Source: Candidatus Saccharibacteria bacterium RIFCSPHIGHO2_12_FULL_44_22
GTDB lineage: Bacteria; Patescibacteriota; Saccharimonadia; Saccharimonadales; Saccharimonadaceae
Assembly: GCA_001790515.1 (NCBI GenBank)
Contig: MGCS01000012.1
Location: 1 to 64,000, forward strand
Reading direction: 5' to 3'
DNA length: 64,000 nt
The translations under genes and the position numbers were made by a program. Below the pieces are notes generated by a model that saw nothing but the letters and a program-made list of their open reading frames with translations, was not told the DNA's origin and made no database searches. Shown piece after piece: positions 12,624 to 39,678 of this stretch (positions are counted from its first letter, which is position 1; every line of letters begins with the position of its first letter).

Positions 12624-14411
12624 CTAAGGAGTTTTGTAAACGTTTTTCATTTCTGCGGTCCAGTATTGAATATCGGCAAATCGTTCGTTTGGCGCGATGA
12701 TCTTTTCATCACTTGTTACCGAGCGAACATTTTTGCCAGCAACATACAGTGAATTTGATTGATATAAACCGACAGCTGGGACATCTTCAAGCCACTTTGT
12801 TGCAAACGCAGCATACTTTACTTTCCGGAGTTCAATATTTGTCTGGTCGCGTGCAGTCAGTAGTGCATCGTCACTTGCAACACTGCTGTAGTTCGCTAAA
12901 TTTACTCGCCCGCGTGAATGCCAGTATTCAAATACGTCAGGGTCTGCACCGATTTCAAGTTCATCGATAAGCACATCATAGTCACGTGGCTGCAGAACTA
13001 ACTGCGTAAAGCTTTGATTTGCAGCGGCCGAATCAACAACTACTTTTTCTACTTCGATACCGATTTTTTTCCACTGACCCGCTAGTTCTTGCATGACGCG
13101 CTCGTAGTCACTATTTTTTCGTGTTACTACACGTAGTTTTAGCGGCTGACCATCTTTTGATCGCACCTCGTTGTCGCCAAGTTTCCATCCAGCCGCATCG
13201 AGCAGTTTGTTTGCCTGCGTTATATCAACTGCCGGTCGTTGCGGCACATTTACACCTGTTAGCTGACCGTTCACGAATGGCAAATCTAATGCTTCAGGTT
13301 GACCATACAGCGCTTTGCGTATAGGCTCGGTGTTTGTCGCAAGTTGCAACGCACGTCGCACCTCAACTACGTTCAATTGCGGTCGGGTTGTATTAATGAT
13401 TGCATACACACCGTTATTAATTGGTTTTTTAATGACAGTGTAGCGTTTTTCGTCTATCACACGAGCCGTATCGTTTGGTACATCAGATGCGGCACTGACC
13501 TCGCCCGTACGAAGCGCTCGCGCAATTTCGTCGGACGTGCCATATACGTGCAATTGATAGCGGTCAAGCTTTGGTGCACCCGAATAATATCGTTCATTAG
13601 CCGCTAAGTGTACTATCTTTCGCCCTTGCCCCTCGCTAATTGCTTGTAGCAGTCGTAGTGTAAATGGTCCACTGCCAACAGGCGCGTTGCTAAAATTATT
13701 CTCGCGGATCGCATGCGGATCAACATCGCGCAAAATATGCTCTGGCAGTACAGAGAATGTCAGAGCCTGAGGAAAGGTTGCCGACGTCGTCCGTAGCGTG
13801 AAGCGAACACTCGTATCACTGACGGCCGCTACTTCTACATCCTTCCAGCTGGCGTTCATCACCGAGCGCGCACTTGGGTCTTTCATTATATTCACTGTAT
13901 AGACGATGTCTTTAGCAGTGACGCTATATCCGTCACTCCATACCGCACCTGGACGCAGCGTAATAGTGTAGTTTTTGCCACTATCATCCATTTCCATCGT
14001 TGTCGCCAGATCACCCTTTAAATTCCCTGTTGTGTCATATTTGTATAACGACGAGAATAATAATCGACTGGCTGATTTTTCTGCGCTCGTTGTTGCATAT
14101 AGCGGATTGAGCGTTGCAAGTGGCCCACGAACAGCCTCTGCATACGTCCCGCCAGCAACTGGCGCAGCTACTAAATAATTCTTTTGGAACCACATCATCT
14201 GCAAACCAATGACAAGTATCAAAGCCGAGACTCCCGCCATCCACAATAGAATATGTCGCCGTACACCACGAATGTTATCCCAACGCTTTACGATGAATCG
14301 ATGAGCGTGACGAACTGTCGCACCTTCGACGCGCTTTGCACGTCGCGATAGATCTTTGCGCCTTCCTTTGACCGTTTGAAAGCGACGCCACCGAGATTCT
14401 TGTTCTGACAT
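12624..14411 (-). CDS. membrane-anchored family-5 extracellular solute (peptide)-binding protein
   Basis: A 595-residue SBP_bac_5 (DppA/OppA-like) protein. A basic N-terminus of about 50 residues precedes one membrane helix (residues 53-72, ILLWMAGVSALILVIGLQMMW). The extracellular binding lobes follow, recognisable by TLNPLYAT, LRPGAVWSDGYSVTAKDIVYT and NNGVYAIINTTRPQLN. Such proteins deliver oligopeptides to an ABC permease, but none is in the window. Unusually for a monoderm it lacks a lipobox and is held by an uncleaved helix with a long cytoplasmic tail. It is last in an operon after secG (14-base gap, AGGTGA). Peptide uptake fits a host-dependent lifestyle. Confidence 0.85.
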   Translation of the reverse strand: MSEQESRWRRFQTVKGRRKDLSRRAKRVEGATVRHAHRFIVKRWDNIRGVRRHILLWMAGVSALILVIGLQMMWFQKNYLVAAPVAGGTYAEAVRGPLATLNPLYATTSAEKSASRLLFSSLYKYDTTGNLKGDLATTMEMDDSGKNYTITLRPGAVWSDGYSVTAKDIVYTVNIMKDPSARSVMNASWKDVEVAAVSDTSVRFTLRTTSATFPQALTFSVLPEHILRDVDPHAIRENNFSNAPVGSGPFTLRLLQAISEGQGRKIVHLAANERYYSGAPKLDRYQLHVYGTSDEIARALRTGEVSAASDVPNDTARVIDEKRYTVIKKPINNGVYAIINTTRPQLNVVEVRRALQLATNTEPIRKALYGQPEALDLPFVNGQLTGVNVPQRPAVDITQANKLLDAAGWKLGDNEVRSKDGQPLKLRVVTRKNSDYERVMQELAGQWKKIGIEVEKVVVDSAAANQSFTQLVLQPRDYDVLIDELEIGADPDVFEYWHSRGRVNLANYSSVASDDALLTARDQTNIELRKVKYAAFATKWLEDVPAVGLYQSNSLYVAGKNVRSVTSDEKIIAPNERFADIQYWTAEMKNVYKTP

Positions 14412-14425
14412 GGTCTATGACTCAC

Positions 14426-14653
14426 CTAGGCGGGGAGAAGAAGTCCTGTCAAGATTGCTATGACAAAAATGACAGCCAAAACAACGGTCGCTTCGAACAA
14501 GTTTTTGTCCAACCCGCGACGTGTCGTATACAATTCACCAGAACTACCAAATCCAGCACCAAGGCTTGCACCACGTTGCTGTAACAAAATTGCTGCTATC
14601 ATTAAGATTCCTGATCCAGCGGTTACTACTTGTAAAATCACATCAATATTCAT
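14426..14653 (-). CDS. secG: preprotein translocase subunit SecG
   Basis: A 75-residue protein with two membrane helices (residues 6-24 and 53-73) around the conserved cytoplasmic loop LLQQRGASLGAGFGSSGELYTTRRG. SecG assists SecYE during protein export. Its ATG overlaps the stop of the upstream membrane gene as ATGA, and GAGGAG provides a ribosome site within that gene. Length and motif are standard. Confidence 0.95.
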   Translation of the reverse strand: MNIDVILQVVTAGSGILMIAAILLQQRGASLGAGFGSSGELYTTRRGLDKNLFEATVVLAVIFVIAILTGLLLPA

Positions 14654-15045
14654 ATTTTCTCCTCGTTTCGACGACCGTACCCTAATTCCAGTACGCTACT
14701 TACTATATAGTTTATCAGACTAAGGATAATTCCGGTAAGAATTGAGTTGATAAACGTCATTTGCAACCCTGGGGTCAACATCAGCGATAAATACACCATC
14801 AATCCATTGACGACCAAGATAAACAGTCCTAGCGTCACCAATATAGCTGGAAGCGATAAAATAATGATGATTGGTCGCAAAATACTATTAATCACTGAAA
14901 AGATTAATCCAGCAACCAAAAACAACGTAAAGCCACCATCTACTTGGGCGTCACTGAACCCAGTGCCTAGCAGGCGAACAGCCAGCCACAATCCAAACGA
15001 ATTGAGTAACCAGCGAACAAGAAATACAGCAAATTGTCGTCTCAT
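14650..15045 (-). CDS. phage-holin-family-4 / YvlD-type membrane protein
   Basis: A 131-residue protein with four predicted membrane helices, carrying the family features FSVINSILRPIIIILSLPAILVTLGLFILVVNGLMVYL. Members of this family (PF04020) occur widely in Gram-positive envelopes and YvlD belongs to an envelope-stress operon in Bacillus; the biochemical role is unknown. It lies between pepP and secG, with overlap into secG. Confidence 0.88.
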   Translation of the reverse strand: MRRQFAVFLVRWLLNSFGLWLAVRLLGTGFSDAQVDGGFTLFLVAGLIFSVINSILRPIIIILSLPAILVTLGLFILVVNGLMVYLSLMLTPGLQMTFINSILTGIILSLINYIVSSVLELGYGRRNEEKI

Positions 15046-23025: not shown

Positions 23026-23153
23026 CAGTAGTTATTATACTATATAATTTAAAATACTATGATCCGACTCTTGGATCCTCTACTCGCAAACGTTTGGACG
23101 ACCAAACCAATAGCGTGAATTACTACAAACTTTGATCGAAAGGCTCTTCTACT

Positions 23154-30257: not shown

Positions 30258-30548
30258 ATGCGCATATTCGTCTTTTTTATTATTCTTTCAGTCGTTGCGC
30301 TCGTTGCGATTATTGACTCTGGAATAAGTGACGCACTTCTTGCGTTTTTACTGTCTGGCGCCGTGCCAGGGACAACGCTCACTGTTTCGCCGACCGTCAT
30401 GATGATCGGTTGCATTGCCGCGGCGTGGTTAGTACTATTCCGTCTTACTGCGCTCAGCGCAATTAATGTCGTCACTATGCGGCGTCTCGTCAATCACCAT
30501 AGCAAGCGCCAAGCACGCATGCCTAAACGACGCTATAGCCGAATCTAG
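30258..30548 (+). CDS. small two-helix membrane protein, unknown
   Basis: A 96-residue protein. Two hydrophobic segments (residues 2-18 and 47-66) flank a short loop, and the tail is very basic (RRLVNHHSKRQARMPKRRYSRI). The ATG at 30258 is supported by AGGAGG six bases upstream; an upstream ATG at 30207 has no such site. The end overlaps the convergent exonuclease I gene by four bases. No family is recognised. Confidence 0.6.
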   Translation: MRIFVFFIILSVVALVAIIDSGISDALLAFLLSGAVPGTTLTVSPTVMMIGCIAAAWLVLFRLTALSAINVVTMRRLVNHHSKRQARMPKRRYSRI

Positions 30549-31981
30549 TCCATACTATCTTGATTGCTCGTGTCCGCAGGTGCGATACTCTCCAGCCATA
30601 ACTTCATTTCTTCAAATATAAATAGCTTACCTTCGTCCGTTTCGCCAGCGGACAGTTTTTCAAACGATTTCATAAATGCAGGCAATTGGTTTGCAATCCG
30701 CTGCGTTCGCCATTGCTCCCATTCAACGGATTCTGACTGCGTCAGTGTTCTTGGGAAATTTCGTGCTTTGTAATGCAGAAGGAGCGGACTAAGTCGTTCA
30801 TCGCTAAACTCTGGATGAAAATCAGTCAGTTCACGTTCTGTTGCATTCCGAACAGTCTCTATACGCAACTTGTCTCGGTCGCCGACAAACCCATCGTATA
30901 ATTGCACCTCCACGTCTTTTGATTTTGGAAAATCTGCCCTGTTCTCAAATAAACTCCTGATGTTCTCTGCAAAATGCGGCGCGCGAAGCAGTGCGTCTCG
31001 ATGCTTTTCGATTGTTGCAGCGTCTAAATGAATTCGCTCCCATGCTCCAGCCTGTTCCAATACACCTAGCGGCGCGACCGCAGGCGCACGATTATACTGC
31101 AGTTCTTTGACCGGAACTTTTACGAAACCATCGGCGTTGCGTTCTTCCCAACTGGCGTTAAGTTTCTTTTTCAATTCGTCGGGTGATAAATCGACGACAG
31201 CTGATGGATCGTAGCGTAAATCGTAGACAATGACATTGCCGTTTTTGCCTGACGTCAGCGGAAATGCAACTGTCGTTTTTGCATGCTCTGCGTCGTAACG
31301 ACCGCTGGTATACACAAAGGGCTTTTTATCATCCAAATTCACAAGGCTCTTGACTGCTTTTTTATCGCGAACACTAAAAAGATATTTGTACATTTGTGGT
31401 TGCTTGTCGCGAATCAGTTTCGTCACAGCTATCAGTGCCTCAACATCGCTGAGTGCGTCGTGCGCCTTCAGATGGTCAATACCGTTCACTTTGGTTAGTA
31501 ATTCTAACTTGTTTGATGCTTTGCCATCTATTTCTGGCCAAACAATGCCGTCTGGTCGAAGCGCACGAACCATGCGCACGACATCTAGCAGATCCCACCG
31601 ACCGCGGCCGTTTTTCCAGCACCATTCATACGGATCGTTAAATGTCCGCCAAAACAAATGACGAACGAATTCATCGTCGAACCGTATATTATTAAATCCA
31701 ATTGCGACCGTATCGTCAGTAAACACTTCGTCAGTCAATAGCCGAGCAAACTGTGCTTCTGTATAGCCATCCGTCACAGTTTGCTGTGGCGTTATGCCCG
31801 TGACGAGTAGTGCTTCTGGACTAGGAAGCGTGTCATCATTGAGTGCGACCAGTACGTTATACGGTTCACCGATAGGATTGAAGTCGGTATCTGTCCGAAT
31901 CCCAGCAAACTGCATAATCCGTGAATCGCGTGCATTCAGTCCGCTTGTTTCGAGGTCATAAAAAAAGAATGTTTGTGCCAT
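30545..31981 (-). CDS. sbcB: exodeoxyribonuclease I
   Basis: A 478-residue 3'-5' single-strand DNA exonuclease of the DEDDh class, working in recombination and mismatch repair. Motifs: FFYDLETSGLNARDSRIMQFA (Exo I, with Asp and Glu), GFNNIRFDDEFVRHLFWRT (Exo II), and HDALSDVEALIAV (Exo III with His and Asp). The SH3-like and helical C-terminal parts of ExoI are visible (FVYTSGRYDAEHAKTTVAFPL, RAPHFAENIRSLFE). Length matches E. coli ExoI. TATTAT seven bases before the ATG implies a leaderless mRNA. The terminator of the next unit upstream lies within 20 bases of the start. Confidence 0.93.
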   Translation of the reverse strand: MAQTFFFYDLETSGLNARDSRIMQFAGIRTDTDFNPIGEPYNVLVALNDDTLPSPEALLVTGITPQQTVTDGYTEAQFARLLTDEVFTDDTVAIGFNNIRFDDEFVRHLFWRTFNDPYEWCWKNGRGRWDLLDVVRMVRALRPDGIVWPEIDGKASNKLELLTKVNGIDHLKAHDALSDVEALIAVTKLIRDKQPQMYKYLFSVRDKKAVKSLVNLDDKKPFVYTSGRYDAEHAKTTVAFPLTSGKNGNVIVYDLRYDPSAVVDLSPDELKKKLNASWEERNADGFVKVPVKELQYNRAPAVAPLGVLEQAGAWERIHLDAATIEKHRDALLRAPHFAENIRSLFENRADFPKSKDVEVQLYDGFVGDRDKLRIETVRNATERELTDFHPEFSDERLSPLLLHYKARNFPRTLTQSESVEWEQWRTQRIANQLPAFMKSFEKLSAGETDEGKLFIFEEMKLWLESIAPADTSNQDSMD

Positions 31982-31995
31982 TACCCTTATAATAC

Positions 31996-32018
31996 AAAAA
32001 ATCCCGCTAGATAGCGAG
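31996..32018 (-). terminator. terminator of the orphan GC-rich unit
   Basis: On the minus strand CTCGCT and AGCGGG form a short hairpin followed by ATTTTTT. It ends the leftward transcript that begins near 32602, just before the sbcB -10 box. Confidence 0.65.
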
Positions 32019-32062
32019 TTGTGATAATTGCATTGTGCTGTATGACAGCTAGATACGTAAAT

Positions 32063-32265
32063 GCGAGTCCCGGGACGGGAGCAGGTTATGGGCGCCGTAG
32101 CCCTGTCGCCCTGCTCCCGTCCGGGATGGGCCAGCTGTGCGGTGCGCAGGCTGGTCAGTATTTAGTTTTTTGTGGGGCGAAACGACTAGCGTTTCTCGTA
32201 GATTACCAAGACCATCATTTTCCTTTCGGATCAGATCGACGTCGGCGCCCAGACTGAGGGCGCCG
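32063..32265 (-). ncRNA. 3' structured part of the orphan transcript
   Basis: Strong GC-rich hairpins: 32069-32085 with 32110-32125 (16 pairs, one bulged G) with an inner GGGC/GCCC hairpin in its loop; 32179-32195 (GAAACG/CGTTTC); and 32244-32264 (GGCGCCC/GGGCGCC). It follows the 47-codon ORF in the same predicted RNA and contains a possible 10-residue ORF (MMVLVIYEKR, 32186-32218, with AAAGGA upstream). It may be a structured 3' UTR or the functional part of a large RNA. Confidence 0.4.
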
Positions 32266-32279
32266 CCGGAGTCGAGGGG

Positions 32280-32423
32280 TCAGGAACCTCCGCCGGAATC
32301 GAGGACGAGATCACCGGAGCCGCCGAGGATGTGGTTGTCGGTCATCGGAGCGCGGCCGGCGCGGTTGTGGCTGTCGGAAATCTGCTTCTTCGTGGTCGAG
32401 GTGATCGTGCGAGATTTGAACAT
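32280..32423 (-). CDS. 47-residue ORF of the orphan unit
   Basis: Starts ATG at 32423 with GAAAGG upstream and ends at TGA (32280-32282). The product begins MFKSRTITSTTKKQISDSHN and ends in DLVLDSGGGS. Third codon positions are almost all G or C (ACC, GAC, CGC, GGC, CTC), unlike most genes here but like pyrF. It has no membrane segment or recognised family. Beyond the TGA the same frame stays open for another 74 codons to a TAG near 32055, and repeats a LDSGG motif (DSGGGS then PLDSGGALSLG). The TGA could be a nonsense mutation of a longer gene, or the ORF may be a real short peptide. Confidence 0.4.
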   Translation of the reverse strand: MFKSRTITSTTKKQISDSHNRAGRAPMTDNHILGGSGDLVLDSGGGS

Positions 32424-32444
32424 TTGACTGCCTTTCGTCGTACG

Positions 32445-32524
32445 AACCTGTAAAAACTGTGACAATACACGGATTGTCACTACAGGTTACTAGCTACTCT
32501 ATGAATAACCACTAACCTGTAGTG
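32445..32524 (-). promoter_or_regulatory. switch-like leader with three AACCTGTA-type repeats
   Basis: CACTACAGGTTA (32478-32489) pairs perfectly with TAACCTGTAGTG (32513-32524). Alternatively TACAGGTT (32481-32488) pairs with AACCTGTA (32445-32452) around a nested 8-bp hairpin GTGACAAT/ATTGTCAC (32459-32480). The middle segment cannot be in both, so the RNA leader upstream of the 47-codon ORF can adopt two exclusive folds. As DNA the same repeats could be operator half-sites. Confidence 0.55.
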
Positions 32525-32608
32525 AACACGTGTCTTGTATTTACGTATCTAGCTTGTCAATGTACCAAACAAACGCGGGAGTTACTCACCGAACTTGATG
32601 ATTTTAAC

Positions 32609-32637
32609 ATAATAACACACACATATATATTTGTCAA
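32609..32637 (-). promoter_or_regulatory. consensus promoter of the orphan unit
   Basis: TTGACA (32632-32637), a 17-base spacer ending in TGT, TATTAT (32609-32614). Predicted start near 32602, about 180 bases ahead of the 47-codon ORF. It lies just beyond the end of the pilin-like operon and is among the best -35/-10 matches in the window. Confidence 0.7.
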
Positions 32638-39419: not shown

Positions 39420-39678
39420 TTTCGTTCTCCTGCCGCATGTATTGCTACAAGGGCGCTACCTTACTTTGTCTTGCTTCTCGTCACAAGCGCTGTACGCTGG
39501 CGAGAACGGGGTACGTGTCGACCGAATTCATTAATTAGTATTTTTTTGAAAATGTTCATTTCGGTACCCGTACGACATTTGTCGGTAGGCTCATTTGCTA
39601 TTCATCTCCCCACTCGCTGATACCATTTTCAGAATTAATCTGTCTCTGCTATTAGTAGTTGAACTCACAAATGTGCTG
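39420..39678 (-). promoter_or_regulatory. structured 5' leader (riboswitch candidate) of the LysM-CHAP gene
   Basis: About 255 bases of untranslated RNA between a consensus promoter and the gene. Helices seen on the minus strand: a long-range stem ACGGGTAC-CGAA with TTCG...GTACCCCGT (39560-39571 with 39506-39526), a small CGAC/GTCG hairpin (39573-39584), and TTCTCG/CGAGAA (39475-39505). A short out-of-frame uORF (MRQENENS) spans the AGGAG site and ends between the ATT and TTG start options. In other bacteria such hydrolase genes are often under c-di-AMP (ydaO/yuaA) riboswitch control. Some core-like words are present (TCTGAAA...TCAG.GCG...GGGGA), but the match is too weak to assign. Confidence 0.45.

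Follow-up and report, generated by a model that had tools for sequence, protein, structure and literature searches.

Several described bacterial systems resemble parts of the locus reported here, which lies between obgE and sbcB in Saccharibacteria. Retron msr-msd RNAs are short promoter-driven transcripts of variable sequence with pairing end arms (a1/a2), internal hairpins and, close to the 3′ end, a long stem, features that recur in the unit described here; however, no reverse transcriptase was found among the ORFs inspected within 6 kb, the interior of the unit holds ORFs led by a Shine-Dalgarno (SD) sequence, and its obgE-sbcB context is conserved. With OLE, GOLLD, ROOL and HEARO the unit shares a length of ~600 nt, strong folding, joined ends and orphan status, but those RNAs conserve their interior whereas the unit replaces it. 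RNAIII of S. aureus, SgrS and SR1 are likewise structured RNAs that also encode a small peptide; these conserve both RNA and peptide, whereas the peptide of the unit is exchanged and is written in codons that appear foreign. Integron gene cassettes likewise have small, exchangeable ORFs downstream of a single promoter, and a 3′ hairpin; the unit differs from them in having one slot, with no integrase noticed, in showing no attC core pattern by eye and in its pairing arms, which enclose the ORF on both sides. Hypervariable secreted effector and bacteriocin loci have in common with the unit a fast turnover at a fixed locus and some signal peptides, but the unit has no shared leader and no adjacent immunity or export gene, and it combines an end-paired mRNA frame with codon usage resembling that of another phylum. 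Searches of Rfam, Pfam and the literature returned no counterpart of end-paired mRNAs with exchangeable cargo, or of the SGFT mini-ORFs that some units carry. What we regard as new is the kind of locus (an end-paired messenger with exchanged cargo and apparently foreign codon usage), not the hypothesis of delivery to a host.

In the window (the whole 64,000-nt stretch of DNA that was analyzed) all features of the unit are on the minus strand, within 32637-31994 (Table 1). The consensus promoter, ~180-nt leader (~32602 to the ATG at 32423), 47-codon ORF, strong hairpins and intrinsic terminator listed in an earlier note on this DNA were all located there, and the unit does stand out from its surroundings as the note had said (GC 60–61% versus ~45%). 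The promoter matches the consensus at 11 of 12 positions, with a TG preceding the −10 box. Neighboring genes, identified from their translations, are uvrA, sbcB, pilins and obgE. That the genome belongs to a Saccharibacterium is indicated by its lysM-TM7 RNA and by a relative, itself recorded as Candidatus Saccharibacteria, in which this locus is also present. The GC content of the cargo ORF by codon position is 0.50/0.54/0.79, and by this composition the GC-rich ORF is a real coding sequence; no other SD-led ORF of this kind in the window reaches a GC3 of 0.80, and by inspection its peptide is not hydrophobic, unlike the small toxins of type I toxin-antitoxin systems. No alternative fold could be demonstrated for the leader, which had been called switch-like.

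Table 1. Positions of the parts of the obgE-sbcB unit, and of its downstream neighbor, in the window.
Feature	Position	Strand	Remarks
Promoter TTGACA (32637-32632), 17-nt spacer, TATTAT (32614-32609)	32609-32637	−	Also at the same position in relatives
P1 hairpin at expected transcription start, ATCATCAAG..GGTGAGTAACTCC..GTTTGTTTGGT	32564-32602	−	Part of model R1
Closing stem, 5′ arm, GACAAGCTAGATACGTAAAT	32539-32558	−	Swap test and shuffle test
P3, long hairpin, CACTACAGGTTAGTGG..CCTGTAGTG	32477-32525	−	Inverted repeat and fold; common to G039
Small hairpin ahead of ribosome-binding site, GTGACAATCCGTGTATTGTCAC	32459-32480	−	Absent from G039
SD region of main ORF, CGACGAAAGG	32431-32440	−	Last part in common with G039 ahead of the divergent cargo
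Cargo ORF, 47 aa, MFKSRTITSTTKKQISDSHNRAGRAPMTDNHILGGSGDLVLDSGGGS, GC3 0.80	32280-32423	−	SD-led; no Pfam match
Second SD-led mini-ORF, MMVLVIYEKR, SD GAAAGGA (32227-32221)	32186-32218	−	Predicted; not conserved
GC-rich hairpin directly ahead of 3′ arm, CCGGGACGGGAGCAGG / CCTGCTCCCGTCCGGG	32070-32125	−	Equivalent in G039 differs in sequence
Closing stem, 3′ arm, ATTTACGTATCTAGCTGTC	32044-32062	−	Swap test and shuffle test
Intrinsic terminator, CTCGCTATCTAGCGGGATTTTTT, hairpin 32018-32003 and T run	31994-32018	−	Identical in G039
sbcB (exonuclease I) homologue, conserved downstream neighbor	30545-31981	−	ORF translation

The inverted repeat of the earlier note is present as 16 perfect base pairs, AGCTAGATACGTAAAT (32554-32539) with ATTTACGTATCTAGCT (32062-32047), and extends to 20 nt (GACA/TGTC) with one bulge in the extension. 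It is far from chance, with a stem score of 37 versus 22 or less in 10 dinucleotide shuffles, and the transcript as a whole folds at −231.7 kcal/mol (z = −5.5 versus shuffles). The repeats are not terminal, contrary to what had been supposed: promoter, P1 and terminator are all external to them. End-pairing was detected in 32 genomes from 16 genera of one Saccharibacteria family (30 regions by automated detection, with G008 and G017 added separately), with closing stems of 12–20 bp. The arm sequences vary between genera (e.g., AGCTAGATACGT, AGTTGGATATAGC, AATTCGACAGT and CCAAGTCGTATCAG). When arms were swapped between units, the unit's own far arm scored better than all 29 swapped partners in 27/30 units (mean score 50 versus 27.5), and the median stem score was 37 versus 21 in dinucleotide shuffles (shuffle 95th percentile 27); the stems of G043, G089 and G160 are individually at the noise limit. 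That the arms differ and yet still pair in 16 genera supports the suggestion of a large structured RNA whose ends would pair.

A comparison of the regions upstream of sbcB in 103 genomes of the family indicates that the unit is a family of positional orthologues between obgE (plus pilins) and sbcB in one Saccharibacteria family. The order of the frame is kept: promoter, P1 at +1, 5′ arm, hairpin, GC hairpin, 3′ arm and terminator. All 14 units folded form a hairpin at the P1 position, with energies from −7 to −15 kcal/mol. Every placeable full-length match to R1, a model of the 5′ module, sits between obgE and sbcB, matches below about 26 bits being mostly ordinary promoters. No such unit was found upstream of sbcB in 17 regions from other families of the order. 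Presence is patchy even inside genera, about half of the family being without the unit, and in the only clear case of loss (G007 versus G089) the unit is deleted from G007 with the 3′ arm and terminator left behind. Contamination of assemblies is an unlikely source of the units, which sit inside one-contig genomes (G015, G023, G035, G104 and G116). In Rfam 15 the unit had no match at gathering or permissive thresholds (large RNAs, riboswitch, tmRNA, RNase P), and our literature searches returned no paper describing it.

While the frame is conserved, its contents are not. In G039, whose sbcB is 79% identical to that of the window, promoter, P1, 5′ arm, P3, 3′ arm and terminator all recur at this locus, and the ends of the G039 unit are 80% and 84% identical to those in the window's genome (G000); from the ORF start codon to the GC hairpin the two do not align, and the ORF encodes a different peptide. 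The cargo of a first class of units (class I) is an SD-led ORF of 29–168 codons that is unrelated between species. Within genus g18 the cargos of G017, G137, G159, G166 and G172 all differ, and across genera g18 and g8 only one pair of genomes, G017 and G121, shares a cargo. Signal peptides are obvious by eye in the cargos of G097, G034, G022 and G027. No cargo had a match above cut-off in Pfam or NCBIfam. The frame is also present in several units that have no long ORF (G126, G142 and G110). These alignments show a conserved frame whose interior is replaced or rewritten between species. Of the earlier proposal that the unit carries a peptide gene, the coding part holds; related genomes conserve the structure at this site and not the peptide, which is the part replaced.

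The reading that we prefer, and to which we give about an even chance, is that the unit is an mRNA frame dedicated to carrying exchangeable peptide genes, serving as an end-protected message for fast-changing effector peptides. A strong Saccharibacteria promoter would produce a 300–800-nt transcript that starts in hairpin P1 and ends in the GC hairpin and terminator, and the closing stem would hold both ends together in vivo. From the known behavior of RNases, the 5′ hairpin, closing stem, GC hairpin and terminator would be expected to shield the ends, giving a long-lived message. The SD-led small gene inside is replaced or rewritten from species to species as the frame stays.

The cargo differs from the genes around it in codon usage. 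Fourteen class I ORFs pooled (835 codons) have GC1/2/3 of 0.56/0.57/0.86, with GC3 above GC1/GC2 at P = 1e-50; we picked these as the longest plausible SD-led ORFs of their units, a choice that may favor high GC3 and perhaps biases the mean upward. SD-led ORFs of lower GC3 occur in some units (G013, G064 and G142), and other units have none. The GC3 of 0.86 compares with 0.45 in neighboring genes, and the non-ORF interior of the units has a GC of 0.55 (P = 8e-68 versus cargo GC3). Ribosomal-protein genes have a GC3 of about 0.30–0.59 in five of these genomes. A Rhodococcus codon table (one plasmid stretch, used as a stand-in for the host) gave a log-likelihood of −761 with no fitted parameter, versus −807 and −794 for a GC-tilted Saccharibacteria table. 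Leu TTG stands at 3% in the cargo, where the tilted Saccharibacteria table expects 36%. For these 14 cargo genes the comparison shows codons that are actinobacteria-like, in contrast to the rest of the organism's genes.

Three other sources of the high GC3 were rejected. Cargo mRNAs have no extra structure relative to synonymous shuffles (mean z +0.57), which rules out RNA structure; the GC3 of ribosomal-protein genes rules out high expression, and the GC of the non-ORF interior rules out a GC-rich interior.

High-GC Actinobacteria are the usual hosts of Saccharibacteria, and by analogy with cultured Saccharibacteria we assume an actinobacterial host for this lineage. The main rival reading, a real possibility though one that we doubt, is a capture hot spot: a single slot that takes up and soon loses short genes of actinobacterial hosts or of their plasmids or phages, in which case the high GC3 would be a memory of the donor and translation would take place in the Saccharibacterium. 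The actinobacteria-like codons and high cargo turnover fit such capture, as do the further GC3-high orphan genes found elsewhere, even within a ribosomal-protein operon; Saccharibacteria are also known to have competence and type IV pili (in part, PMC11665869). Against it, no donor homologue was found for the few cargos searched, in searches that see close relatives only: tblastn gave none for the G034 cargo in plasmids or the G097 cargo in phages, viral contigs gave none for the G097 and G035 cargos, and among 84,980 species genomes the G034 cargo matched its own Saccharibacteria record only.

The G017/G121 pair also bears on capture. Its cargo pS is 0.030, compared with 0.201 for obgE (P = 0.007) and a leader divergence of 0.161 (P = 0.028), while its pN is 0.115 versus 0.014 for obgE (P = 3e-6), in a codon test that covers one species pair and 34 synonymous sites. 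The indels of the ORF, each of 3 nt, leave the reading frame intact. In this one pair codon choice is conserved and the peptide changes fast, the reverse of an ordinary gene. Synonymous sites that stay still while neighbors and leader drift argue against a fading memory of the donor genome, which does not predict this.

Under the preferred reading of a message frame with exchangeable cargo, the peptides may be fast-evolving factors that act on or in the actinobacterial host, and GC-ending codons would be kept because host ribosomes, or a host-like tRNA supply, matter. A bolder form of it, which we think rather unlikely, is that the cargo of this RNase-protected, end-paired messenger is in the codon dialect of the host because it is translated there, and that the epibiont delivers peptide effectors encoded in nucleic acid. 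The host-dialect codons suggest, without proving, a message or gene meant for reading in the host. To our knowledge, no substrates of the type IV secretion system are known in Saccharibacteria. In one cultured Saccharibacterium, epibiotic growth depends on this system as an essential component (PMC12102498). More speculatively, RNA or DNA could be passed to the host, for example through that system. Were the cargo read in the host, this would be delivery of translatable nucleic acid from bacterium to bacterium by a parasite, and other GC3-high orphan genes would be a genome-wide signature of host-translated effectors. The locus yields concrete candidate effectors for the action of Saccharibacteria on their hosts, and a simple rule for genome-wide searches: orphan ORFs with GC3 far above that of the genome.

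A second class of cargo (class II) was found in 10 obgE-sbcB units as an SD-led ORF of 7–10 codons ending in Gly-Phe-Thr/Val/Ile/Glu-stop (e.g., MHTSGFT, MNTSGFT, MYTSGFI and MDWPSGFT). There are 13 SD-led matches of this SGFT type, compared with 0.3 expected per shuffled set and 0 on the reverse strand. These mini-ORFs are not GC3-high. Both TCN and AGY codons specify their serines, a sign that selection acts on the peptide. That result is at odds with a reading that we consider improbable, in which the end-paired RNA is itself the product, with incidental ORFs in an interior that is free to diverge. The strong folding, the retained closing stem and the units of G126, G142 and G110, which keep the frame without a long ORF, are what a structured non-coding RNA would show; the SD sequences that precede the ORFs, the excess of GC3 over GC1/GC2 and the frame-keeping 3-nt indels of G017/G121 speak for coding.

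The same mini-ORFs could be taken as ancestral, with an ORF of 7–9 codons ending in (S/T)SGFT-stop encoding a secreted heptapeptide signal or a ribosome-stalling leader, and the larger cargos coming later. Beyond the excess of matches over shuffles, this is favored by the duplication of the mini-ORF in G150 (and, by eye, in G105) and by its recurrence away from the locus. A motif search of 198 genomes gave 8 hits, with 3 in obgE-sbcB units, 3 inside ordinary genes, 1 in a similar unit at another locus of G135 and 1 in a unit of G085. Still, neither the window nor about two thirds of the units have an SGFT-type ORF, and no receptor or regulated gene was identified, so that we rate the signal or leader reading as quite improbable. 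In G085 (L196, contig C13) one transcript at a non-homologous locus carries two SGFT-type mini-ORFs, MYTSGFI and MFTSGFT.

A non-autonomous, MITE-like transposable element with terminal inverted repeats, as the earlier note had proposed from the 16-bp perfect repeat near both ends, and with which the patchy presence would agree, is hardly credible, as the unit occurs once per genome and at a single conserved site, a search of the window's genome found no further copy of the 20-nt repeat, the repeat sequence differs in each genus and is internal to the promoter and terminator, and the loss in G007, which left the 3′ arm and terminator, is a deletion that does not run from repeat to repeat.

Closing stems or GC3-high ORFs were also observed at other loci. 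In G172 (L103, contig C14, 1501-2351) a 178-aa ORF with a GC3 of 0.93 adjoins smpB, and in G024 (L035) a 204-aa ORF with a GC3 of 0.87 lies upstream of the obgE-sbcB unit. The window's own genome has a unit at another locus (L117, G000:C4) whose 5′ arm overlaps the ribosome-binding site, and two orphan ORFs (L107 and L110, contigs C11 and C16) with raised GC3 (0.72 and 0.77), each having a strong promoter and a hairpin terminator of its own. In G116 (L218) GC3-high orphan genes (0.71–0.81) with their own promoters lie at 13838-14219 and 14406-14943 on the plus strand and 163-717 on the minus strand; two of these orphans are between secY and infA/rpsM, where the surrounding ribosomal genes have a GC3 of about 0.45. 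The G116 orphans are without the end-paired frame, and frame and codon usage are therefore partly independent. Several high-GC3 ORFs also occur on a short contig (L102, G069:C89) from a fragmented MAG; this contig could be a plasmid or contamination.

Further structured RNAs were observed. A conserved promoter-driven RNA of about 320–350 nt is present in G135 (L009, 1131-1515, minus strand), G119 (L017, 1535-1851, plus strand) and G125 (L018, 1172-1520, minus strand), with the motifs GCACCTAAATAA, GTATTACCTCCACTT, AACCGGCGGRCCC and GTGAGGTGGGTC and the terminator loop GGTGATGCCCACCCTTACC. It has no Rfam match, and compensatory changes are found in 13/77 predicted pairs among the three sequences; the copies in G119 and G125 are located upstream of topA. 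The window itself contains two known Rfam cis-regulatory RNAs, lysM-TM7 (39427-39590, minus strand) and MDR-NUDIX (23056-23116, plus strand).
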